Assembly (NCBI RefSeq): GCF_014779765.1 | Contig: NZ_JACXZA010000006.1 | Coordinates: 372,001 to 436,000, forward strand | Source of the DNA: Paenibacillus terricola | GTDB lineage: Bacteria; Bacillota; Bacilli; Paenibacillales; Paenibacillaceae | DNA length: 64,000 nt | Direction: 5' to 3' | In this document: piece by piece, positions 49,884 through 64,000 of the stretch | Position numbering within the stretch: position 1 is the first letter of the stretch | How the letters are laid out: every line of letters begins with the position of its first letter | The notes under the pieces: generated by a model | Seen by the model: only the letters and a program-made list of their open reading frames with translations | Told to the model about the DNA's origin: nothing | The model's database searches: none | Program-made: the position numbers and the translations under genes

Positions 49884-51788
49884 CTACCAAATTCTAATGT
49901 AGTTTTTACCCCTCTTCAAATGAGCGATCGGTCCAAGTACACTGCGCTCGGTCCTTCGTTCACCTAGCAAGTCGGTGTCCAAGATTACTTCGCTGCCATC
50001 TGGGTTCTCAAACTCGGCATCCACAATGCGCACCCGCGGCAGTGTCGTTGTTGAATGGATCTCGCCGGCAATATGCTCGAAGCTTTCGGGCAATTCTATG
50101 GCAAGAAACCCTACTTCTCCTTGATCGATAATGCTGAAGCGAGGATCGTAGCCTCTCTCAATCATATTTTCCGTTTCTCTTTCGAACGGATCCGCACCGT
50201 TGAAATAGGCGTTGTTGCGAATATAAACCGGTTGTTTAACCCGTTCGAATTCCTCTACGTCGCCATGTATCTCATGCACTTGCTCCATATATTCCTCTAA
50301 CGATGTGGTGTAGTCGTTGAAGTGGTAGGTCCCCACCTCTTCTCCAATAAAGATGTTGTTGTAGAATCGATCATCTCCACCATATGTCAGCGCAAAACCG
50401 GCAACTTGCGTGCTATGCGGCAGGTGATATTGTGTGGAACGATTCATTACCCTGCGACGGCTCATCTTGCCTCCGATCAAATTGTTAATGTACGCACCGC
50501 CCTGGGCCACATTTTCCAGCGCATATTCAGAGTTCAAGATATTATGGTCCACCATATAAGGACCGTGACTTACTTCCAAGAACAAATCCCGATGGTTCTG
50601 ATATAGGATGTTCTTGCTGATTCTCGTCCCTTGAATCTGCCAATCCAGCCAGATGCCAAGCGTACAATCATGAATTCGGTTATGGTGGATTTGGGTATCG
50701 ATCGGCGCATGAAGCTTAATGCCGGCAATTTCATGACCCCAGAATTCACGCTTGACCGCAATGTTGTATATGTGATTATGGTGAACTTCGCTAAAAATGC
50801 AACCCAAGTGACCGACAATCGCATTCTGCCCGCAATCGTAAATCGTATTATTACGGATGATATGAGAACCGATTGTATCCTTGCTCCAACCTTGACGCTC
50901 TGCGGTAAAGACCGATTCGAGCTGATATTGATATCCCGGCTTATCTCGACGGACCGAACGATAGTTATGACCTGTGGAGGCTTCTTTACCGATGCTGATT
51001 GCGCTGCATTTGGCATCATGAATAATGTTGTTCTCAATAATCCAGCCTTTGCTCCAATTCGGACCGATCAGACCGGGCTGATCAGCAGTCGGCGGCGCCC
51101 ACGGTGTTGCTGCATGTGCCATCTCGAACCCGCTAACGGTAATATAGTCGATTCCTGTCTCAACCGGATAGAAGCAAGAACGACGAACATTGATTTCGAC
51201 AAGCTCTTGATTCGGATCTACACCTTGGAAATTTGCGTAGATCGTCGTATGATTCTCATTCACCTCTGCATACCAAACATAAGTCGTCTGCCGAGGATTG
51301 TGTTGTGGGATCGTTCTTTGTGTCCATAAGTCCTTAACTTCCGTTCTTGCTACTGGATTATGTAAGAGATCAAACCGACTTACTTCATAGAAGGACATAT
51401 CGTTCAGGTAGACGTCGCCCAGATGTTTCTTCTCGTCAATCGTAACAAGCCAATCGCCGAATACTTCTTCTGCATATGGATTGTAATCGCCGAATAATGT
51501 GTTCGGCACGACTACTTTCCACACGTGACCTTCAACGGGCTGCCAATCCCGAATGCGCTCAGAGCCCTTGATGACTACCTTCTCGCCTTCTGCTGCTCGA
51601 TAGGTAATTCTTCTCTTGTCACTTAGTCCTTTGTATTTGGGCTTAACCCATTCACGATAAACGCCCTCATGAACGATAACCGTGTCCCCAGCCACAGCAA
51701 CAGATGCCGCTTTGTTGATAGTGAGGAATGGATCCTGTTTCGTTCCCCGTCCTTGATCGGAGCCTTTCTTCGCTACATAATATTCCAT
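49884..51788 (-). CDS. GH120 beta-xylosidase (right-handed beta-helix)
   Basis: A 634-residue protein very close in layout to the GH120 beta-xylosidase XylC of Thermoanaerobacterium as I recall it. The start has the DUF1565-like DPFLTINKAASVAVAGDTVI. Many beta-helix rungs follow (IIENNIIHDAKCSAISIGKE; SHIIRNNTIYDCGQNAIVGH; QIHHNRIHDCTLGIWLDW). Counting places Asp382 in GIWLDWQ and Glu405 in DLFLEVSHG, the same numbers I know for the catalytic Asp382/Glu405 pair of that enzyme. No signal peptide: it would cleave xylo-oligosaccharides in the cytoplasm. TTAGGAGGATATATC precedes the ATG. An AraC gene lies upstream on the same strand. Confidence 0.88.
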   Translation of the reverse strand: MEYYVAKKGSDQGRGTKQDPFLTINKAASVAVAGDTVIVHEGVYREWVKPKYKGLSDKRRITYRAAEGEKVVIKGSERIRDWQPVEGHVWKVVVPNTLFGDYNPYAEEVFGDWLVTIDEKKHLGDVYLNDMSFYEVSRFDLLHNPVARTEVKDLWTQRTIPQHNPRQTTYVWYAEVNENHTTIYANFQGVDPNQELVEINVRRSCFYPVETGIDYITVSGFEMAHAATPWAPPTADQPGLIGPNWSKGWIIENNIIHDAKCSAISIGKEASTGHNYRSVRRDKPGYQYQLESVFTAERQGWSKDTIGSHIIRNNTIYDCGQNAIVGHLGCIFSEVHHNHIYNIAVKREFWGHEIAGIKLHAPIDTQIHHNRIHDCTLGIWLDWQIQGTRISKNILYQNHRDLFLEVSHGPYMVDHNILNSEYALENVAQGGAYINNLIGGKMSRRRVMNRSTQYHLPHSTQVAGFALTYGGDDRFYNNIFIGEEVGTYHFNDYTTSLEEYMEQVHEIHGDVEEFERVKQPVYIRNNAYFNGADPFERETENMIERGYDPRFSIIDQGEVGFLAIELPESFEHIAGEIHSTTTLPRVRIVDAEFENPDGSEVILDTDLLGERRTERSVLGPIAHLKRGKNYIRIW

Positions 51789-51986
51789 CTTGATATATCC
51801 TCCTAAGGTTCAACTTGCTTGCACCTAATAATAAAATTTAATAATTAAGCACAATGCCATCTTCATTCCTTCAGCTCAGTTGCGATAGACCGTAAGAACT
51901 ATATAAGTCTATGATGACAACAATCCTTAACATAGGTTTGTATTTTTTTATTTTTGTGTTTTATTTGATTGTTTCCATTGTTTCCC

Positions 51987-52922
51987 TCACTTGCGAGCAG
52001 AGAGGTTGTGCCCTGTGGAATCGTGTAGAGAATGGTTGCATTCGTTCTCATTCGTACCTGGAATACGTGCTGCCCTTTGTCTTTTACGATATTGCATGGG
52101 AGAGGAACCTTTATATCGACTGAAGCAATTGGAGAAGTACGGCGCATACTTGAAGCCCACGCGCTCAGCAACCTCAGCCACCGATAATTCCGTATTGGAC
52201 AGCAGGTGCATCGCTTGCTCAAGTCGATATTGAATCAAATATTCCAAAGGCGTGCAACCGTAGACTTCCTTCATGCATCGAACGATATAATTCGAATGAA
52301 AATGCAAGGCCTCTGCCAGCACTTCGTTCGTCAGTTCCTGCTCATAGCACCGACGCAAATAGCTCTCGGTCAGCTCCGCAAGCCTTCTTACCGATGTCAA
52401 AGTGCAGTGCTGATCCTTCTGCTCCTCATCAAGCAAATGAAGCAGTTCCATGAACCGCTGCTGCCCTCTCCAATATTCAGAAGGTCCTTCTTCTGCTGTA
52501 AGCCCCATCTTACGTTTGAGAAGCCGTTCGATTCTGGCGCAATGCTGTAGCGCCCCATATTGCGAAATGATTAGAGGGTACACAGTAGTAGACGCGAGCC
52601 GATCAGGAGGCGAACACGCTAAATTATCATCTTCCCTATACGGCCCTAGATAATCGAATCGGACTTCATAGAAGATTGTCTCATTATGACAGGAGGCAGT
52701 TGAAATGTAATGGCGGTCGGGAAGCAGCAGAATAGACTGTCCCTTCTCCACTTGCCACAGACTCTTCCCTTCTCCAATAGACAATGCTCCTCGAATGACA
52801 AACAACCAACCGTAGACTCCGGTGCAGTTCTGCTCTGCATACTGCTCACCTTCTCTATAATGCGTACGTTTGACCGATATGAAATTCGGCGTCGGCGGCA
52901 GATCCAGGATAATGCGTTTCAT
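51987..52922 (-). CDS. AraC-family regulator upstream of the GH120 gene
   Basis: Start set at the ATG at 52922, six bases after AAGGAGG; the ATG at 52928 would abut that site. The 311-residue protein has a cupin-like N-terminal half (VYGWLFVIRGALSIGEGKSL; KGQSILLLPDRHYISTA). The AraC domain contains LTNEVLAEALHFHSNYIVRC, MKEVYGCTPLEYLIQYRLEQ and VAERVGFKYAPYFSNCFSRY. The gene 198 bases downstream on the same strand is the beta-xylosidase, a plausible target. Confidence 0.88.
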   Translation of the reverse strand: MKRIILDLPPTPNFISVKRTHYREGEQYAEQNCTGVYGWLFVIRGALSIGEGKSLWQVEKGQSILLLPDRHYISTASCHNETIFYEVRFDYLGPYREDDNLACSPPDRLASTTVYPLIISQYGALQHCARIERLLKRKMGLTAEEGPSEYWRGQQRFMELLHLLDEEQKDQHCTLTSVRRLAELTESYLRRCYEQELTNEVLAEALHFHSNYIVRCMKEVYGCTPLEYLIQYRLEQAMHLLSNTELSVAEVAERVGFKYAPYFSNCFSRYKGSSPMQYRKRQRAARIPGTNENECNHSLHDSTGHNLSARK

Positions 52923-52946
52923 TACCATCCTCCTTGCATAAATTAA

Positions 52947-52974
52947 CGAAAGGAGGCTGAGCGACCTCCTTTCG
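52947..52974 (-). terminator. Rho-independent terminator after the dockerin-bearing lyase
   Basis: CGAAAGGAGG and CCTCCTTTCG form a perfect 10-bp stem with an eight-base loop. The minus strand then has TTAATTTATG. Confidence 0.75.
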
Positions 52975-53012
52975 TGATCCTACCTGCTAGATTAGTATTG
53001 TTCTGCTAGCAT

Positions 53013-56000
53013 CTATGGCGTGTTCAAAATGCCCAATGCCACAATAACAAGATCATCCAGATCAATGACATTGTCATGGTCGAGATCATATTTGCTATAC
53101 TTCGCGCCCCACTGCGGATCGGCGGAAGTTAAACCATATGCCGCCGCGACAATGCCGAGGTCACCAATGGAGTATTCGCCATCTTCGTTCGTGTCGCCAG
53201 GCTGCGCGACAATGACAGTTGCTGCGAATGCATGTATAGCCGCTGTCAGTTCTTCTACCGCTTTCTCGACTTGCGCAGCTGTAGCCAGCTCGTCCTCTGC
53301 AACGACAGATGCTTGGGCTATTGCGGCGCCGAACCGATCTTTCGACTGCTGCGAATATTGACCTGGCTTGGTACCTACGATCCCCAAGTCGAATTGCTCT
53401 TGCGCGCTTGCAAGCAGCGAGATAAGCGCTGTTTTGTCCGCTGTAGACTGAATGACTACGCCTGTCGACGCGGCAGCAACCGACTTTTCCACTCCTTCAC
53501 CAGTGGCTGTTCGGTTCGTGATTGCGATCACAGTGGAAACCGACTCGTCCAGTACTTTCGCCTTCCAATTCATCTTGAAGAGCGTCGTATCTGCGTCAAT
53601 GGCATTGGTTTCACCTTCGGAAATCGCAATAATATGGATACGGCCAGGCGCAGCATCAGTGCTTATCAGTTGGAATCCCTCCACTAGTGATTCCGCTCCA
53701 AGGAATTCGATCGCCGCCGAATCATAGGTTACGATTATATCCTGTGCGAGAATGCTTTCATTAACATTATGAATTTTATAATTAGTTGTAAATTCGGAGC
53801 CTCCAACAACGCTCGCAGGATTACCGGAAATCGAAGCATACAACTCGTCGTCGCCATATACATGAATCGTAACGCTGTGGGTTGTCGACAATCCCGCCTT
53901 GTTCACTGCCGTTGCTGTCAGCGTGTAATCACCTCTCAAGCCTGTAAGAGGCATTTCCTGACCATTCTTAACAGGCCAGCCGTCGAAAGTGATAACCAGC
54001 GATTCAATGTCCGATTCCGAATCGGTCGCCGTCACCTCGATTGCGAGTACATCGCTCTCCTTCAGTTGCTGATCGGCTAGTCCGCTTAGCAGCGGCGCTG
54101 TTGTGTCTTCTTCAGCAACAGGTCCGCCTACGATGTTGAGGAGCGGAGCCGGAGGTTCTTCCATGCCCGTTCCCAAGTAAAAACTCGTATGCGGCGGCTG
54201 GTTATAAGCAACGTTCTGCCAAGCTACGCCCAGTCGATAGATCGGATCATGCATCAGCGTTCGAAGACGCGTATCGGTTAGATCGGTCGTCGTATAGATT
54301 CGTAGCTCGGTGCTGTCGACGCTGCGCCAGATCGCTTCCTCGCGCCAGTCACCGAACAAGTCTGCCTGCAATCCCGGATTGCCCTTCGTTCCGTTATTGG
54401 ACTGGGTACCTTGCGCCGTCACTAGATTGACCGTCGTTTCGGTTATTGGATCCCATTTGTCAATCGTGCCCGTTCCATTGCTGGCCACATGGTTGAGAAG
54501 CTCACGGCTCAGGTCTCCATCCCACCAGATCGCGAAGTTAGTAGATGAAGGAGCATTCGTCGTAATAAGTTCACCTCTTGCGCTATACAGTCCCGTAACC
54601 GACTTATTACTTCCGTCCACGATGGTGGAAGCCCACACCTCCTCGCCCAGATAGTTCGGGTCGACGTCAGCCGACAATCCTCGACCTGTATCAATGCCTG
54701 TCTTAACGCCAAAGATGGTTTCGCCAGTTTCAGCATCACGGAATTCCAAGCCATACGGTACCGCATTATTCTCATGCACATCTAACACCTCAAGGCCTGG
54801 ACGGCTTGGATCAAGATCGCCCAAATGCATCGCATCGCCATGGCCGAGTCGTGTGTTGTAGAGCGGCGTTCCATCGTCGTCGATCGCCATTGCGCCGAAC
54901 GTGATCTCGTCCTTGCCATCGCCGTCGACATCGCCGACGGATAGGTTGTGGTTGCCTTGGCCTTCGTACGCTTTGCCGATGTCCTCGTTATTCGTATCGA
55001 AAACCCAACGTTTCACCAGTCCGCCTTCCTTGAAGTCATAGGAGGCGATTACCGTTCTTGTATAGTAACCGCGGCTGAAAACCAAGCTCGGATGCTCGCC
55101 GTCCAAATAAGCGACAGCCGCAAGGAATCGGTCGACCCGATTGCCATATGCATCCCCCCATGCGGCTACATTGCCTCGGGGCGGGTCATAATTAACGGTC
55201 GAAACGGCCTTGCCCGTAACCCCTTCAAAAACAGTCAAGTATTCATTGCCTTCCAGTATAAATCCGGCTTCATTACGATAATCGGCATTCGGATCTCCAA
55301 TAACAACACCGGTGCCATCCACTGTACCGTCAGCCGTTTTAAAGGCCACCTCCGATTTACCATCTCCATCAAAGTCGTAAACCAGGAATTGGGTGTAGTG
55401 GGCGCCTGCACGAATGTTTACACCAAGATCAATCCTCCACATCCGCGTCCCGTCCAGCTTATAAGCATCGATATAAGCTTTGCCCGTGTAACCGAATTGA
55501 GAGTTGTCATAAGGGTGACCATCCCACTTGACTATTAGCTCATAAGTACCGTCACCATCTAGATCACCAACGCTTGTATCCGTCGCATAGTAAGAGAATT
55601 GCTCTCCGTTAGGCAGAAGGTCATCGGCGGGCTTCTGCAGCGGTACAGACAAATAATTCCGATTCCATACGCTCGCTTCCTTGCCAGCCATCGCTTCCGT
55701 CCCGTCGGCTGCTACGGTTTTCAATTCGTACACCGACGTTTCAATGCCGTCTGCGTCCAACAGGTTGGTCGCTCCTGTTATCGGCTCCGCATTGACTTTC
55801 TCGCCGTCACGATAGAGGTTAAAGGCAATATCGGAAGGGTCATTGCCGAGCATCTTCCAGCCTACGTAAATACCCGCATCCGTCTTGACCGCCACAAGGG
55901 CGCGATCCAGAAACTCTGCTTGACGGTACAATACGGTCACCGCAGGAGTAGCCAGCGTCTCGGTCTGCGCAGATATGCCGCCTTCATTGACTGCCGCAAC

Positions 56001-58283
56001 TTTGTAATAATAGGGAATCGTGGTCAGTACCGCCGTATCGGTATAGCTTGCATCGCTCGTCTTGCCGATTATCTCGAACGTGCCGTTTGCTTTATCTGCA
56101 CGGTAAACGTAATAGATGAGCGCATTTGCGCTTACGTCCCAAGCAATGGACAAATCGTTCTTGTTCACCTTGCCAGTCCGAAGATGAAGCGGCGCGTCGG
56201 GAATTGCGGCGTTCGAATCGGCCACCGTTACTGTTATCGGCCCTGCCGCTCTCGATTCAGCACTCGCTGCATCGACGGCAGAAACCTGATACCGATAGGA
56301 GAAGCCCAGTTCCACCTGTTCATCCGCATATTCAGTTGTCGTCGAGCTTCCAAGCAGAACGAATTTACTCGATCCCACGCTCTGACGGTATACGTTATAC
56401 TTGCTCGCATTCTTGGCACCTGTCCATGAAAGCGAAACAGAAGGATGATCCGGGTCCGCATGGATCGCGTCGGCCTTCAGATCCTGAGGTGCGCGAAGCT
56501 TGGCATCTTCATCTGATATGACTTTAATTTCGTCAGCGTTCAGGGCACGGTCGTAAACGCGGAAGGTCGATACCGCTCCTTCGAATAACGGATCATTGAA
56601 TGGCGCGCGTCCGATCGTGTTCCGCGACTGATCCGCTAATTGCGCGAGCGACAGGTCGCTGTCCTGGTTTTCTCCTGTTTTGACCCCATCTACATAGAAG
56701 GAGATCTTCTTCGCATCCGCATCAATGACGGACGTAAGGCTGTACCAACGATTCCCCGAAAGAGACATGGCAGAGGCTGCGGTTTTCTCCGTACCGCTGT
56801 ACTTGATGGTCGTGCGAGGGTCACGCGCATTCGCGAACCAATACGTATTGGTTCCCGTATTGCCGATGCTCCATAGGAAGTGGTACTTGCTGATCATCGC
56901 TGCGCTCGGCTTGACTTCTATGCTGACCGTAGCCGACGTCTTGCCGCTAAGCAGATCGTTCGGAAGGGACACCCACGTTCCCGTCGGGCTGCTCACGGAA
57001 CTCCCCTCGCCCGAGAAAACAAGGGATTGGTCCTCCCACTTGGCTGTTGAAGGATTCTGCACGATTGCATTGCCGATGTAATCGACGCCCGTCTCTCTGG
57101 GCGCTGTATTGACGATGGTTCTTCCGTCCAAAGGGGCGTCGATGAACGAATAGTTTGCGATCAAGCCGTCCTGAGGAACATTCGTTGCCGTCGGAACTTC
57201 CGGCAATACAGGAAGCACCTTGACCGTTATGTCCTTCGATAGAGTGATACCGCGTATCGACATCGTGGCGGTCAACGTACCGATCGCAGGCTCGCTGCCT
57301 TCCATCGGCTGAATGGCAGTAGCGGTTATGCCGTTGGCTGCGATCGTCACTAACGGTGTGTTCGAAGTCCACGTCACGGTATCGTTATAGCTCGGAAGGT
57401 CTGCGGGCGAGTATCCGATTACCAGGTCTGAAACCTTCGCGATGGCTTCTTGCAACCTCTGTTCGAAGACGTCCGCGTGCAAATTAGAGTCCGCATCGGA
57501 TATCGTTTTGACCTCGTTCGCGTCCAGCGCGCGGTCGTATACGCGGAAGGTCGATACCGCCCCTTCGAACATCGGATCATTATATGGAGCGCGTCCGATC
57601 GTATTCCGTGATTGATCCGTTAACTGCGCAAGCGACATGCTGCTGTCTGTCGCTTCGCCAACCTTTACGCCGTCGACATAATATTTAATTGAATTCGTAT
57701 CCGCATCGATGACGGACGTGATGTTGTACCACCGATTAGCCGTAAGCGGCGTAACGGATGATGCCGTCTTCTCCGTGCCGCCGTACTTGAAAGACGTACG
57801 AGGCGCCAGCGTGTTCGCGAACCAGTAGTTCGCAGTTTCGGTATTGCCGATGCTCCACATGAAATGGTTCTTCGTAATGATTGCCGCGCTTGGCTTGACC
57901 TCAATGCTGACTGTCGCGGAGGTTTTGCCGCTTAGAATATCGTTAGGCAAAGACACCCACGTTCCCATCGGGTTGCTTACGGAAGTACCTGCTCCAGAGA
58001 ACACAAGCGCATTGTCTGTCCACATGGCTGTCGATTCATTCTGCACGACTGCATCTCCGACCGCCTCGGCGTCTGCCGAGTTGTTCGCAATGGTCTTGCC
58101 GTCCTGCGGCGCCTCTGCGAACGAGTAATCCGCAATCAAGCCATTGGTTGGAATCGCTGATTCGTTTGAAGCATAGACCATGCTTCCCGCACCTGCCGAG
58201 ATGCTGCCTGCAACGACGGAGACCGACAATAAGACGGACATTAGTTTCTTGCCCCGGAAAATTCCGCTTGTTCGTTGTGTCAC
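53013..58283 (-). CDS. Exported rhamnogalacturonan lyase (PL11) with LamG, FnIII, cohesin-like and dockerin modules
   Basis: A 1756-residue secreted protein starting at GTG (GGAGGTACAAGAA upstream). Order: signal peptide 1-39; LamG-like domain 45-270; bacterial Ig-like segment 272-360; second LamG 370-597 nearly repeating the first; two FnIII domains 600-780. The PL11 catalytic propeller spans about 785-1405 ([74 protein letters not shown]). Then come an Ig-like domain to 1480, a cohesin-like module 1482-1613, a FIVAR-like helical region 1614-1695 and a dockerin 1696-1756. The dockerin has two calcium loops (DTNEDGEYSIGD and DLDHDNVIDLDD). It should cut rhamnogalacturonan I and may attach to cohesins. 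Confidence 0.9.
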   Translation of the reverse strand: MTQRTSGIFRGKKLMSVLLSVSVVAGSISAGAGSMVYASNESAIPTNGLIADYSFAEAPQDGKTIANNSADAEAVGDAVVQNESTAMWTDNALVFSGAGTSVSNPMGTWVSLPNDILSGKTSATVSIEVKPSAAIITKNHFMWSIGNTETANYWFANTLAPRTSFKYGGTEKTASSVTPLTANRWYNITSVIDADTNSIKYYVDGVKVGEATDSSMSLAQLTDQSRNTIGRAPYNDPMFEGAVSTFRVYDRALDANEVKTISDADSNLHADVFEQRLQEAIAKVSDLVIGYSPADLPSYNDTVTWTSNTPLVTIAANGITATAIQPMEGSEPAIGTLTATMSIRGITLSKDITVKVLPVLPEVPTATNVPQDGLIANYSFIDAPLDGRTIVNTAPRETGVDYIGNAIVQNPSTAKWEDQSLVFSGEGSSVSSPTGTWVSLPNDLLSGKTSATVSIEVKPSAAMISKYHFLWSIGNTGTNTYWFANARDPRTTIKYSGTEKTAASAMSLSGNRWYSLTSVIDADAKKISFYVDGVKTGENQDSDLSLAQLADQSRNTIGRAPFNDPLFEGAVSTFRVYDRALNADEIKVISDEDAKLRAPQDLKADAIHADPDHPSVSLSWTGAKNASKYNVYRQSVGSSKFVLLGSSTTTEYADEQVELGFSYRYQVSAVDAASAESRAAGPITVTVADSNAAIPDAPLHLRTGKVNKNDLSIAWDVSANALIYYVYRADKANGTFEIIGKTSDASYTDTAVLTTIPYYYKVAAVNEGGISAQTETLATPAVTVLYRQAEFLDRALVAVKTDAGIYVGWKMLGNDPSDIAFNLYRDGEKVNAEPITGATNLLDADGIETSVYELKTVAADGTEAMAGKEASVWNRNYLSVPLQKPADDLLPNGEQFSYYATDTSVGDLDGDGTYELIVKWDGHPYDNSQFGYTGKAYIDAYKLDGTRMWRIDLGVNIRAGAHYTQFLVYDFDGDGKSEVAFKTADGTVDGTGVVIGDPNADYRNEAGFILEGNEYLTVFEGVTGKAVSTVNYDPPRGNVAAWGDAYGNRVDRFLAAVAYLDGEHPSLVFSRGYYTRTVIASYDFKEGGLVKRWVFDTNNEDIGKAYEGQGNHNLSVGDVDGDGKDEITFGAMAIDDDGTPLYNTRLGHGDAMHLGDLDPSRPGLEVLDVHENNAVPYGLEFRDAETGETIFGVKTGIDTGRGLSADVDPNYLGEEVWASTIVDGSNKSVTGLYSARGELITTNAPSSTNFAIWWDGDLSRELLNHVASNGTGTIDKWDPITETTVNLVTAQGTQSNNGTKGNPGLQADLFGDWREEAIWRSVDSTELRIYTTTDLTDTRLRTLMHDPIYRLGVAWQNVAYNQPPHTSFYLGTGMEEPPAPLLNIVGGPVAEEDTTAPLLSGLADQQLKESDVLAIEVTATDSESDIESLVITFDGWPVKNGQEMPLTGLRGDYTLTATAVNKAGLSTTHSVTIHVYGDDELYASISGNPASVVGGSEFTTNYKIHNVNESILAQDIIVTYDSAAIEFLGAESLVEGFQLISTDAAPGRIHIIAISEGETNAIDADTTLFKMNWKAKVLDESVSTVIAITNRTATGEGVEKSVAAASTGVVIQSTADKTALISLLASAQEQFDLGIVGTKPGQYSQQSKDRFGAAIAQASVVAEDELATAAQVEKAVEELTAAIHAFAATVIVAQPGDTNEDGEYSIGDLGIVAAAYGLTSADPQWGAKYSKYDLDHDNVIDLDDLVIVALGILNTP
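54140..55940 (-). repeat. Duplicated PL11 catalytic segment (copy in the dockerin gene)
   Basis: The DNA from about 54140 to 55940 is highly similar, with scattered third-position changes, to about 60315-62100 in the second lyase gene. Long identical stretches are visible by eye, for example around the GTCGACCCG and CACATGGTTGAG motifs. This points to a recent tandem duplication or gene conversion of the catalytic core. Confidence 0.75.
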
Positions 58284-58393
58284 TTCTTGTACCTCCTGAT
58301 CAAAATGGATTTGGGAGTATGAAATTCATGTACGATGTGCCAACAAACGAGTTCCCTCAATATCTCTACCTTATTCCTCCCTTTGCTAATGCT

Positions 58394-58447
58394 TTATGCT
58401 TGGCTCTGGATGAATACCGAACGCGAAGACAAATCACCTCCTTTCAT
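58394..58447 (-). CDS. Possible 17-residue leader ORF in front of the dockerin lyase
   Basis: The minus strand has AGGAGGGGATGTT, ATG, then AAAGGAGGTGAT, which is a perfect 12-base complement of the 16S 3' end and lies inside the ORF. The frame encodes MKGGDLSSRSVFIQSQA and stops about 110 bases before the lyase start. It may be a translated leader or just a ribosome-binding element in the untranslated region. No homologue is recognised. The rest of 58284-58504 shows no other feature. Confidence 0.25.
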   Translation of the reverse strand: MKGGDLSSRSVFIQSQA

Positions 58448-58504
58448 AACATCCCCTCCTAATTCAGGTGTCGTCGCTCATGCATCTGCTGTCGTATTCG
58501 GACG

Positions 58505-59569
58505 TTACTGTACTGCTGCAAGATAATCCAAGCCCGCAGCGATGACGGTTACGGCTTCGGCACGGCTTGCATTGCCTTTCGGCAGGAATTGGTTGCCGCT
58601 GCTGCCCTTGATGATCCCCGCTTCCACTGCCACCGCAATGGAAGGGCGTGCCCATGCCGGAATGCTGTCAGAATCCGCGAAGGTTGGCTTTCCGCTGGCA
58701 TCTTGCGGGAGTTCGAGAACGCGTACAATAATAACCGCCATCTCGGTCCGCGTAATGAGCTGATTCGGCCGGAACGTATGATCCGAATAGCCCGTTATAA
58801 TACCAGCTGCGGATGCTTCGGCAATTGCCGTTCGCGCCCAGCCTGGCAGTTGAGCCGCATCAGCGAATTCAGGCGTTACACCGACTGTTATTGCTTTCAA
58901 TTCGAATGCACGAGTGATCATCGCCGTGAATTCAGCGCGAGTTATCTTATTATCAGGACGGAAGGTTCCATCCGCATAGCCATTCACGATACCCATCGTT
59001 GCTGCACGTACAATCGCATTGTTCGCCCAATGACCATTGAGGTCCGTGAACCTGATCGGCATTGCTTCTTCAACTGCTTGAATTGGGATGATGGTCGATA
59101 CATTCACTGCCGCCTCCGTTGATTTCAAGTCGCTATTGACCAGTTTGACGTTGTCCAGTGTAACGACCGCAAGCTCGGCAGTCTTGTCCAATGCTGTAAA
59201 CGTGAATATCGCGAGCTCAACGGTTCCGCTCTCGCCAGCGGATTTGCCAATCTTCGTATGCGCGTATAAGAGCTTGTCGCCTGACGCGTCTTTGGGAGGA
59301 ACCGAGAAGCCAGCTATTGCACTTGCTGACTTTTCATATCTCAGGAGCTTATCGTCGAAGCTCATCTGAAGTTCGAACCCATACACATCCGTAAGGTTGG
59401 AGCCGATTACACTCACATTCACCTGCTGCCCTTCAGTCGTTGTCTGTGGGCTTATCGTCAAGGCAAAAGACGGTTCCTTCGCTGCCATCGCCATGAAGGG
59501 AACCATGGTGAACTGCATCAGGAGCACAATCACGATTACTGTCAATTTGACGCTTATGCCTTTGACCAT
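58505..59569 (-). CDS. Cohesin-like plus triple S-layer-homology anchor protein
   Basis: A 354-residue exported protein. The start is set at the ATG at 59569; that at 59578 is only two bases from AAAGGGGGA. Signal peptide about 1-30. A cohesin-like beta-sandwich follows at 34-158 (FALTISPQTTTEGQQVNVSV, DVYGFELQMSFDDKLLRYEK, VELAIFTFTALDK). Three SLH domains span about 172-345, with motifs ITRAEFTAM, ITRTEMAVI and ASRAEAVTV. SLH domains bind pyruvylated secondary cell-wall polymer, so the protein should sit on the cell surface displaying one cohesin. It lies between two rhamnogalacturonan lyase genes, one of which ends in a dockerin. Confidence 0.85.
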   Translation of the reverse strand: MVKGISVKLTVIVIVLLMQFTMVPFMAMAAKEPSFALTISPQTTTEGQQVNVSVIGSNLTDVYGFELQMSFDDKLLRYEKSASAIAGFSVPPKDASGDKLLYAHTKIGKSAGESGTVELAIFTFTALDKTAELAVVTLDNVKLVNSDLKSTEAAVNVSTIIPIQAVEEAMPIRFTDLNGHWANNAIVRAATMGIVNGYADGTFRPDNKITRAEFTAMITRAFELKAITVGVTPEFADAAQLPGWARTAIAEASAAGIITGYSDHTFRPNQLITRTEMAVIIVRVLELPQDASGKPTFADSDSIPAWARPSIAVAVEAGIIKGSSGNQFLPKGNASRAEAVTVIAAGLDYLAAVQ

Positions 59570-59627
59570 ATGTAACATGTCCCCCTTTCTCTTTGCCGAT
59601 CGGATACAAGACTCGGTCTAAATGAAA

Positions 59628-59658
59628 CAAAGCAGCCACTAGTGACATGACTGCTTTG
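59628..59658 (-). terminator. Terminator after the second rhamnogalacturonan lyase
   Basis: CAAAGCAG pairs with CTGCTTTG around a 15-base loop. The minus strand continues TTTCATTT. It separates the lyase gene from the cohesin-SLH gene, which probably has its own promoter. Confidence 0.6.
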
Positions 59659-59691
59659 CTTCTGTTGTTTGATCCTAGTTCGGTGCGCGCA

Positions 59692-62600
59692 TTAATTCTT
59701 AACGGTGACGGTTATAGTTGAGGTAGCCGTCTCTCCGGCGTCATTGATTAGTTTTGCTTGGTACGTATAAGTACCCGGAGCTTTACCGCTAATGATGGAT
59801 ACCGCGGATTGAGCACCTGGCGTGCTGGCCACCAGCGATTGCGTGTCGACTAGAGTGCCATTCTCGTAAAGCTCGTATCGGGCAGCATTCGTGCCCCACC
59901 ATAAATTCATCGTCACCTTGTAGTTGCCGTCTTTATCCCAGTTATCGTGGGATAGTGACGCCTTCGCCGGTAATGCATCCGTTACCGTTACAGTATAAGG
60001 ATCGCATTGGGTTGTGCCGAACGAATTCGTTAATTCACAAGTGTACACATAAGTACCGTTCTTCTTGCCGCTCAGATCGGTTTTCACAGACTGCGCATTA
60101 GGAGATGCGTCTGCCAGTTTCACAGAACTTACGAGTACACCATTCTCATAAAGCTTAAATTGGTTACCGTTATTGCCCCACCACAGGTTCATGGTAACGG
60201 AATAATCCCCATCTTTAAGCCCGCTATCGTGACCATTGTTATCCGAAAGAACAGGTTTGCCTGGTTTCCCCTCTGCCAATGGCTGCGCATGATCACCCAC
60301 AATGATGATTTTCGGAGCCGGAGGCTCTTCCATACCCGTTCCGAGGTAGAAACTCGTATGCGGCGGTTGGTTGTATCCAACATTCTGCCAAGCGATGCCC
60401 AGTCGATAGATCGGGTCGTGCATCAACGTACGAAGACGCGTATCGGTCAGATCAGTCGTCGTATAGATTCGCAGCTCGGTGCTGTCGATGCTGCGCCAGA
60501 TCGCTTCCTCGCGCCAGTCGCCGAACAAGTCTGCCTGCAGGCTCGGATTACCCTTCGTTCCGTTATTGGACTGGGTTCCTGCTGCCGTCAACAGATTGAA
60601 CGTTGTTTGCGTTGCAGGATCCCATTTATCAATCGTGCCGGTTCCATCACTAGTTACATGGTTGAGCAGTTCGCGGCTCAGGTCGCCGTCCCACCAGATC
60701 GCGAAGTTCGTGGAAGACGGAGCCTTGGTCGAAATAAGCTCGCCCTTGACGCTATACAGACCCTGAATTGGTTCAGCACCATTATTCACGATTGCTGCAC
60801 CCCATGCTTCTTCACCGAGATAATTCGGATCAATGTCAGCCGTTAATCCTCGTCCAACATCAAAATCGGTCTTAATGCCCCACAGAATCTCTCCTGTCAA
60901 CGGGTCACGCATCTCTGCACGATATTCAACTGGATGTTCGTGGATATCGAACAATTCAAGCCCCGGACGTGTCGGATCGAGATCGCCCAGATGCATGGCG
61001 TCACCATGCTCCAGACGCGTGTTGTAGAGTGGTTGTCCATCGTCGTCGATCCCCATCGCGCCGAACGTGATCTCGTCCTTGCCATCGCCGTCTACATCTC
61101 CGATGGAAATGTTATGATTGCCTTGGCCTTCGTATTCCGAACCAGCTTCGTTCGTATCGAACACCCAACGTTTAACGAGCTGTCCGTCTTTGTAGTCATA
61201 TGCAGCAATAACCGATCTCGTATAATAGCCGCGGCTGAAAATCAGACTCGGATGCTCGCCGTCCAGATAAGCCACGGCTGCCAGGAAGCGGTCGACCCGG
61301 TTGCCGTATCCATCTCCCCAATCCTGTACATTGCCGCGCTCAGGAATATAGTCTGTCGTCGTAAGCGCTTTACCCGTTAAACCATCGAATATGGTCAAAT
61401 ATTCCGGCCCATCCAGAATGAAGCCGGCTGTGTTCCGATAGTCCGCATTCGGATCGCCAATTACAGCGCCGGTACCATCCACTGTTCCATCTGCTGTCTT
61501 GAAGGCTACCTCTGATTTGCCGTCTCCGTCAAAGTCATATACCAGGAACTGCGTATAGTGAGCGCCATTCCGGATGTTCTTGCCAAGATTGATGCGCCAC
61601 AGCAGTGTGCCGTCCAGCTTATAAGCATCGAGGTATACGATACCCGTATAGCCGAATTGCGAATTATCAGCACCGCGTCCATCCCATTTCACAATCAATT
61701 CGTAGGTGCCGTCTCCATCGAGATCGCCTACGCTGGTATCATTAGCATAGTAAGTATAAGACTCGCCGGTAGGGATAACGTCATCTGCTGGCTTCTGCAG
61801 AGGAACGGACAAGTAATTCTTATTCCATACGCTGGCTTCTTTCGAAGCTATTTTCTCGCTTCCATTAGCTGCAACGGTTTTCAATACGTACACAGAGGTC
61901 TCCGTGCCGTCCTCGTCCAGCAGATTAGTCGCTCCCGTTACCGGTTGTGCATTGACTTTCACGCCATCACGATAGAGATTGAAGGCAATATCGGAAGGAT
62001 CTGTACCTAGCATCTTCCATCCAACATATATGCCATCGTCCGTTTTAACCGCAACGAGCGCACGATCAAGGAACTCCGCTTGACGGTACAACGTCGTTAC
62101 AACAGGCGTCACCAGCACATCGGATAGCTCCGATATCCCGCCAGCGTTCAGCGCTGCAACTTTGTAGTAATAAGGAGCCGATGTCAGTACCGTCGTGTCC
62201 GTGAAAGAAGTTTCCAAACTTCTGCCTACCCGTTCATAGGCTCCAGTTGCATTCTTCGCACGGTAGATATAGTAGACATTAGCTTCAGCGCTTGCGTCCC
62301 ATGTGAATGTCAAGTCATTCTTGTTTACGGCTCCGATTTGCAAATCAACGGGAACCGAAGGGATCGAAACCGACTCATCCTTCAGATTGACGCTCAGGGG
62401 AGCAGTTGGCGATGATTCCACGCCTGCAGCATCAACAGCCGTCACCCGATAGTCATACTCTAATCCGGCATCTACCGTATGGTCGACATAAGCGCTCGTC
62501 ACCGTGCTTCCTACCAGCACGAACTTGCTCTCATTGTCGGTCTTGCGGTAAACATTGTATTTGAGCTTGATTGTCTCCATGGAAGGTGTCCATGAAAGCG

Positions 62601-64000
62601 ATACATACGGATTGATTGGATCGTTATTCTGCGCATCCTTCTGCAGAGCTGTCGGCGATAACAGGATTTGAGTAATCTCGATGCCGTTAACCACTCCAGC
62701 GAAGTCGAACGTCATTTGCCCGTCTGAAACAAGGACGTTCTCAATCAAGCGGTCGGCAACAGCATTCTTTGCCCTGCCCATAAAGCCATAGCCTTTGCCT
62801 TCTATGATGATGTCGACGCCTTGTGTGCCTGCGAGGTCGCCTGAATAAAGCTTCACCGCATATACACCATTCGGCAGATCGACATTGAATTGACCAGCGA
62901 GACTGATCCAATCGCGCGTCATGTCTCGCAGCGGCTCCGCCGATGGGTTAGCCGCTGGCCCGCGATCGCGAGACCACGCACTGGTTCCTGCAGCAAGTCC
63001 ATAACCGACTTGCGGATCATAAATTGTATTAACGTTCACCGCATTATAGCCTGCTTGTACAGGAGTACCGACATCGCCGAAGTCGAATTTCAACGCCTTC
63101 TTCGTACGGAAAGCTGCTGTCTCCGACGGATCGGACTCCCCTTTGAAGTTGAAAGCTGTCACGTTGACATCGTAAGCGGTATCTTCCGTCAGCCCTTGAA
63201 GGGGATACGTGGTTGCCGATGCCGTTCCGACATATGCATACTGCTCCTCAGCAGCGAGCTTGTAATAGATGTTGTACGTTTCTGCGTTCTGCACAGCATC
63301 CCATTTTACGACAACCGTCTTATTACTCACTTTGCCTACATTAACGCCTGTAGGGCGTGTTGGCGGCGCGAAAGGAACACTTGCAGCGACATTCGAGCTT
63401 TGTGAGAATCCCGCGTAATTTAATGTTTTTACGATATAGTAGTACACGTTAGACGTGTCAGCCGTACTATCCATATACATCGTCTCCGCTGTACGGCCAA
63501 CCTCGCTATACGTTCCGTTCGCGGAATCCGCCCGGAAAATCGCGTATAGAACGCCATCGCCTACGCGTGTCCATTTCAATCCGATGTTCGTCTTCGTTAT
63601 GCCTGTAATAGCGAGTCCCGTTGGCGCCGCGGGCGGCTCGGTCGGAAGCTGCACTTCGACTGTCACAGACGTACTCGGATCGGATTCAATCTCCCTACTC
63701 GTTACGACTGTCACTCGGTATTCATAATTCGTGGAGATCTCAACCGTCCCGTCCGTGGAGGACGTTCCTGTCACTTGCTGTAGGAAACTGAAGTCATCTT
63801 GGCCTGCAACCGATCGATATACGTTATACTTGGCTGCGCCTTTCACTGCTTCCCACTGCAGCAGTACCGATGCCGAGTCTCCTGCAGGCGACACGATGAC
63901 CTTGTTTACGACAAGGCCGGTCGGCGCTAATGGTCCCGCATGAAGCTTTACGTCCTCAGCGGATATGGCTTTAATCTCATCGGCCTCCAAAGCGCGATCA
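59692..64000 (-). CDS. Exported rhamnogalacturonan lyase (PL11) with FnIII and CBM-like modules, N-terminus beyond window
   Basis: The frame runs to the right edge; a TTG at 63990 is internal, because R-A-L-E-A-D-E-I-K continues a LamG end like that in the neighbouring lyase. Visible order in about 1435 residues: three FnIII domains (20-293); a galactose-binding-like module near 295-450 ([40 protein letters not shown]); two more FnIII. The PL11 catalytic core lies at about 645-1250 ([34 protein letters not shown]). Two C-terminal modules of the chitinase-N-terminal type each carry V-T-M-N-L-W-W-G. It has no dockerin, unlike its paralogue. Secreted pectin degradation is the likely role. Confidence 0.9.

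Follow-up and report, generated by a model that had tools for sequence, protein, structure and literature searches.

A dockerin-bearing rhamnogalacturonan lyase and its neighbouring cohesin-SLH anchor in Paenibacillus terricola: a probable two-gene surface display cassette

Does a rhamnogalacturonan (RG) lyase that ends in a dockerin dock onto the cohesin protein encoded next to it, and is such a pair peculiar to one genome? The question is raised by two adjoining minus-strand genes in a window of 64,000 nucleotides, the whole stretch analysed, from Paenibacillus terricola (contig NZ_JACXZA010000006.1, positions 372,001 to 436,000; coordinates below are those of the window). They encode lyase B, also called E1 (53013..58283), and the anchor S1 (58505..59578), a protein with a cohesin and SLH domains. 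As a rule, cohesin-dockerin systems depend on calcium and are organised by shared scaffoldins. The initial annotation had proposed a minimal cellulosome-like system with one cohesin, specialised for pectin. We consider a surface-docked lyase in a two-gene display cassette the best explanation, with a probability of about 75 %.

Reading frame and domain scan gave lyase B 1756 amino acids, preceded by the Shine-Dalgarno sequence AGGAGGT at about 58291-58297. Its domains are, in order, a signal peptide, two LamG-like domains, an fn3-like domain, the lyase of family PL11 (RG lyase family 11), a Big-like domain, a cohesin, a FIVAR domain and a dockerin; fn3, Big_7 and FIVAR scored below the Pfam cut-offs. 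The catalytic part (54144..55925) consists of the RGI_lyase beta-sheet domain (residues 787-873) and RGL11_C (877-1380). The RGL11 domain is complete, with 490 of 490 profile positions matched (Pfam, E 3.5e-246), and assigns the enzyme to PL11. Nearest chains in the PDB were YesX (2zuy, E 2.2e-222) and YesW (2z8r, E 1.7e-214). The loop distinguishing these two, which presumably sets the exo mode, has a YesX-like length in lyase B. The terminal dockerin (53016..53201) was not reported by the Pfam dockerin model at E<=0.01. It has the two repeats of a type I dockerin, with both calcium loops intact as first annotated (53160-53195 and 53052-53087; ligand positions DNDD and DDDD), and helices at 229-237, 248-255 and 265-277 of an AlphaFold tail model. 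That the neighbouring gene encodes one cohesin followed by three SLH domains was also borne out by the domain scan. The count of one cohesin holds for the anchor; the lyase's own cohesin of the enzyme type (53448..53852, residues 1478-1612) and the FIVAR spacer (53214..53438, residues 1616-1690; PF07554, E 5.8e-4, below cut-off), three helices in the tail model, had been overlooked. With one cohesin, one dockerin and a catalytic domain, lyase B has the build of a cohesin-dockerin (Coh-Doc) monovalent adaptor enzyme, and since it carries its own cohesin it may act as receptor as well as ligand. S1 (357 residues) combines a signal peptide with a cohesin at 59099..59473 (residues 36-160; signature AHTK, typical of anchors), whose match lies below the Pfam cut-off, and three SLH domains at 58544..59053 (about residues 176-345; PF00395, three stretches, E 5e-41), which match the S-layer protein Sap (6bt4, E 5e-17). 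On these domains S1 would be an exported, SLH-anchoring scaffoldin of the OlpA-like build.

The pair does not stand alone in its genome. A cohesin search of the genome, followed by fetching the stretches around the matches, revealed two further pairs on the contig of the window, S3/E3 and S2/E2, so that three cassettes lie within about 65 kb. E3 (L013:11196-17093) contains RGL11 and GDSL-type domains followed by cohesin, FIVAR and dockerin. E2 (L013:3044-9682) has a DUF5695 domain, a cohesin, three FIVAR domains and a dockerin without calcium ligands, and adjoins its Coh-SLH anchor S2 (L013:1942-3012). On contig C12 a purple-acid-phosphatase-like protein with a cohesin-like domain and a dockerin (L014:3490-5775) lies beside an SLH protein of 572 residues (L014:1672-3390); this pair is rated as probable because the cohesin of the SLH protein is barely detectable. 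The search for other dockerins that the initial annotation had suggested was thus fruitful, with E2, E3 and the phosphatase joining E1 as the dockerin-bearing enzymes of the genome. A unique pair is ruled out by these relatives, and so is a full cellulosome: the eight matches to PF00963 at E<=0.1 all lie in different frames, hence no multi-cohesin scaffoldin was found in the genome and the term minimal cellulosome has to be dropped. S2 and S3 are 92 % identical in their SLH domains and 40 % in their cohesins. For S1 and S3 the values are 70 % and 63 %, and their partners carry similar dockerins (E1/E3 66 % identity; E2/E3 31 %).

Across the family, a profile of the anchor cohesin matched 140 of 394 Paenibacillaceae genomes (E<=1e-3). 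For the 80 with stronger matches, the locus of the best anchor match per genome was fetched; the own genome and 58 further matching genomes were left out, and one locus was dropped at a contig edge. A Coh-SLH frame was present in 79 of the 80 loci, with one cohesin each, and 71 of these 79 genes were adjoined by a dockerin gene on the same strand. Chance would produce such adjacency in about 2 %, on a rough estimate that takes genomes of 6-7 Mb with no more than 15 scored dockerins each. With the three own pairs the set comprised 74 cassettes. The gap between the genes had a median of 75 bp and was at most 250 bp in 72 cassettes. In 59 the anchor gene followed the enzyme gene; in the other 15, which include the window pair, it came first. 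The dockerin was C-terminal in 70 of the 74 enzymes, and all except one (73/74) had a cohesin of their own. In 12 genomes with several cassettes, a set that overlaps the 80 loci, 53 of 55 anchors adjoined a dockerin gene. Anchor and dockerin profiles co-occurred: 129 of the 394 genomes matched both and 226 neither, while 11 matched the anchor only and 28 the dockerin only. In a sample of 299 genomes of the phylum the anchor cohesin profile matched 13, of which 11 were outside Paenibacillaceae; a scan of genome contigs yielded one locus, L048. Pfam annotation of 22 of the 71 foreign enzymes revealed GH10, GH43, GH127, GH3, GH101, rhamnosidase, sialidase-like, RGL11 and GDSL domains; for several enzymes no clear catalytic family emerged. 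Given this variety the cassette is general, and the proposed specialisation for pectin is not supported. Next to the anchors of two loci (L079, L131) were proteins of 425 and 549 residues. Both contain two cohesin matches and one or more internal dockerins, and they are possible branching adaptors.

The cassette dockerins fell into two classes. Of the 74, 35 retain three or all four ligands in each loop; the other 39 lack the ligands of loop 1, which mostly reads L, P, A/Q/E, D with the last ligand alone kept, and 23 of these 39 also fail in loop 2 on a lenient count. In the own genome E2, and not the window lyase, represents this calcium-less class, which lacks the ligand pattern of type I dockerins. 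The class is conserved (mean column identity 68 %), and hhalign shows its homology with the calcium class (99.3 %, E 2.4e-20); PDB profiles find it weakly (best 0.017). With a best E of <=1e-20, a cut placed at a gap in the score list, it occurred in 61 of the 394 family genomes; all 61 match the anchor profile, and the 254 genomes lacking an anchor match are without it. S2, whose partner dockerin is calcium-less, is itself one of the sequences in the anchor profile. Among 22 genomes that match the anchor and appear dockerin-free by the calcium-type profile, 11 have a calcium-less dockerin, so standard models undercount dockerins. Two genomes of the phylum sample, one of them the own genome, contain the class (E<=1e-3). 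The sole match outside the family in this sample, G476:C1:429079-429234 (L140), is dockerin-like and its frame contains one TGA. E3 and the enzyme at L118:10191-16202 share the RGL11-GDSL build and carry opposite dockerin classes; it seems that tails are swapped irrespective of the catalytic part.

If a dockerin binds the neighbouring anchor, the two should vary together. Across species the co-variation gave no clear answer by itself (partial r -0.11 once all controls were applied), and the comparison was therefore made within genomes, which removes species history (12 genomes, 51 cassettes, 92 pairs). Here the dockerin correlated with the anchor cohesin at r 0.575 versus 0.326 with the anchor SLH domains (permutation p 2e-4 and 4e-4, respectively; p 0.015 for the difference). 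The partial correlation with the cohesin given SLH was 0.50, that with SLH given the cohesin 0.03; enzyme cohesin and anchor cohesin given SLH reached 0.76. Within genomes the anchor cohesins thus co-vary with the Coh-Doc tail of the neighbouring enzyme and not with their own SLH domains. On trees of the 74 anchors the dockerin class changes three times on the cohesin tree (one change forced) and five times on the SLH tree (four forced). As shuffled classes need about 25 changes on either tree, both trees show clustering of the class.

Structure prediction was applied to a homologous pair. At locus L062 the end of a calcium-less enzyme runs in frame into its anchor, and both were folded as one chain by AlphaFold, with stops replaced by glycine and 51 alignment rows. 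The predicted template modelling score (pTM) was 0.73; the predicted local distance difference test (pLDDT) reached 95 in blocks of the dockerin and 98 in the cohesin, and nearly all of the 56 residues below 50 were in the linker. Compared with our own estimates of about 0.50 for an undocked and about 0.70 for a docked chain, the pTM favours docking, and the model is consistent with a docked calcium-less pair. All 50 PDB matches listed for the modelled anchor cohesin were cohesins or cohesin-containing chains. The tail of the window lyase gave a pTM of 0.63 at a mean pLDDT of 92 over three domains, with no residue under 50. Because the pTM is this low despite the absence of disorder, cohesin and dockerin of lyase B are probably not packed together.

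Taken with adjacency, co-occurrence and within-genome co-variation, the homologous model makes a docking pair of lyase and anchor, as first annotated, the most likely arrangement. Domains, folds and these genomic patterns are observed; binding, choice of partner, chaining and export we infer. S1 would be exported and held by its SLH domains on the secondary cell-wall polymer, with one cohesin exposed. Lyase B, exported as well, would dock on this cohesin by its C-terminal dockerin and cut rhamnogalacturonan I (RG-I) at the cell surface. Its own cohesin would stay free on the FIVAR spacer, where the dockerin of another enzyme molecule could bind, be it a further copy of lyase B or E3; each anchor could in this way carry short chains of enzymes. 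The S1/E1 pair of the window should need calcium; the E2/S2 pair probably works without it.

Several observations weigh against the two-gene display cassette. The loci were chosen with an anchor profile from the own genome, which limits the adjacency rate to close relatives of these anchors. Eight of the 79 anchors had no adjacent dockerin. Uncovered sequence borders three of them, and for one of these three a dockerin lies 4.9 kb away; around the remaining five, one of which is close to a contig end, the fetched DNA showed no dockerin. The 28 genomes that match only the dockerin profile belong here, as does the across-species partial r, obtained for dockerin and anchor cohesin in 73 cassettes with enzyme cohesin and SLH held constant. 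In the same cassettes the anchor cohesin tracks the enzyme cohesin (0.78) more closely than the dockerin (0.66); this can be read as both cohesins being fitted by one dockerin, and equally fits a pairing of dockerins with enzyme cohesins. The docked model is of the other dockerin class than the window pair and relies on a pTM judged against estimated references. Finally, a hairpin precedes the anchor gene, therefore shared expression with the lyase gene upstream is unsure.

The best surviving alternative takes up the second cohesin: the lyase dockerin would mainly bind cohesins of further lyase copies or of other enzymes and form soluble oligomers as in Clostridium perfringens, the anchor cohesin would have another ligand, and the neighbourhood would be incidental. 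The strongest co-variation indeed connects dockerin and enzyme cohesin (r 0.89 overall, 0.80 within genomes), the tail of lyase B resembles the cohesin and FIVAR-dockerin of C. perfringens, and the cohesins of anchors and those of enzymes form separate subfamilies (signature AH[TS][KRQN] in 71 of 74 anchors versus 0 of 73 enzymes). However, linkage alone would make a cohesin and a dockerin of one polypeptide co-vary, and an anchor with some other ligand would lead one to expect neither the adjacency in 71 of 79 loci nor the link of calcium-less dockerins to anchors in 61 of 61 genomes. We regard this alternative as unlikely. Still less probable is that SLH protein and enzyme merely travel together as an operon, with the anchor cohesin a plain adhesion or carbohydrate-binding domain; the sub-threshold Pfam match of the S1 cohesin and the tight linkage of the genes would agree with it, but the homologous anchor cohesin model retrieved cohesins or cohesin-containing chains in all 50 listed matches and the anchor cohesins follow the tail of the partner instead of their own SLH domains. 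A self-closed tail, in which the dockerin folds back on the cohesin of its own chain and no surface docking occurs, is very improbable, for although the two domains share one polypeptide and are about 11 residues apart in some relatives, the confidently modelled tail domains of lyase B are not mutually fixed and docking in cis is not predicted.

Beyond the window, the two-gene display cassette may represent a decentralised alternative to the cellulosome in Paenibacillaceae: each large extracellular enzyme would have a private wall anchor with one cohesin and could form chains through a cohesin of its own, and roughly half the pairs would use new, conserved calcium-free dockerins with co-diverged cohesins, docking orthogonally within the cell and independently of calcium. 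This wider proposal is tentative, its chances falling slightly short of even.

Upstream of S1 and in the same orientation lies lyase A (59692..64000, minus strand), the C-terminal part of a PL11 lyase of 2322 residues, of which 1432 fall inside the window and whose start is outside. Pfam on the 1432 residues and cohesin and dockerin profile searches found neither domain. Lyases A and B resemble paralogs, A without and B with a docking tail. The hairpin between lyase A and the anchor (59624..59662, minus strand; 16-bp stem, U-rich tail) is a possible attenuator or terminator; its z-score is -2.1, 4 of 200 shuffles were equally stable, and its loop exceeds the size limit of the terminator scan. 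In the gap between anchor and lyase B (58284..58504, minus strand) one promoter-like site (58343-58316, 9/12) and no terminator-like site were called, and 3' of lyase B is a terminator-like hairpin with a 12 bp stem (52946..52975, minus strand); the numbers of promoter- and terminator-like sites in the region equal chance expectation. Rfam models gave nothing at gathering scores in 50000-64000. Further genes of the region encode a GH88/105-type hydrolase, a PL4 RG lyase, a GDSL protein, a protein with an arabinofuranosidase domain, GH43 proteins and a histidine kinase; on these enzymes the region is a locus for RG-I. It also contains a GH10 xylanase with its own SLH domains (L012:15226-19785), anchored directly, unlike the docked enzymes.

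Widespread pairs of one anchor per enzyme would show a one-by-one display of surface enzymes in soil bacteria. From natural calcium-free dockerins protein engineering would gain orthogonal docking modules, and such dockerins would directly test whether the fold itself requires calcium or whether calcium serves only to regulate it. A literature search, with most subscription journals outside its coverage, gave no recognised description of the gene-pair cassette or of a calcium-less dockerin class. Systems of this kind are already known in silico; what is new, as far as this search showed, is the rule of paired genes, the calcium-less class and the co-divergence.

Parts of the cassette are familiar from several bacteria. 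No SLH anchor is known from C. perfringens. Its structures 2jnk, 2ozn, 2vo8 and 2jh2 are the best matches of the lyase B cohesin (by structure) and FIVAR-dockerin (by sequence and structure), and lyase B has both folds of that system; the arrangement of FIVAR and dockerin differs from the lyase B model (root-mean-square deviation 12). The enzymes of C. thermocellum are not known to carry a cohesin of their own. OlpA and OlpC of this species belong to a full cellulosome with CipA, unlike the window pair. Like S1, they combine cohesin and SLH domains and serve as anchors for dockerin-bearing enzymes (PMC4045903; structures 3ul4, 4dh2). The amylosome enzyme Amy4 of Ruminococcus bromii combines cohesin and dockerin like lyase B, with surface docking by a calcium-dependent dockerin and possible self-aggregation; the system differs in its sortase-anchored scaffoldins, its starch enzymes and its calcium dependence (PMC5814915). 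P. curdlanolyticus has an SLH protein without cohesin (PMC6823336). Closest is P. guangzhouensis, with the same parts as the window cassette (PMC11557425): 28 Coh-Doc proteins, many with a glycoside hydrolase domain as 'monovalent adaptor' enzymes, and five SLH-anchoring scaffoldins (Coh-SLH) as possible docking sites for them. With this set and the anchor profile in 140 of 394 family genomes, the pair is less notable in Paenibacillus than first supposed. In the available part of that paper no pairing of the two genes is noted, and 'adjacent' and 'calcium' are absent from the main text. The survey, of 2024, itself raises the question whether dockerins were missed, and the calcium-less class could explain them.

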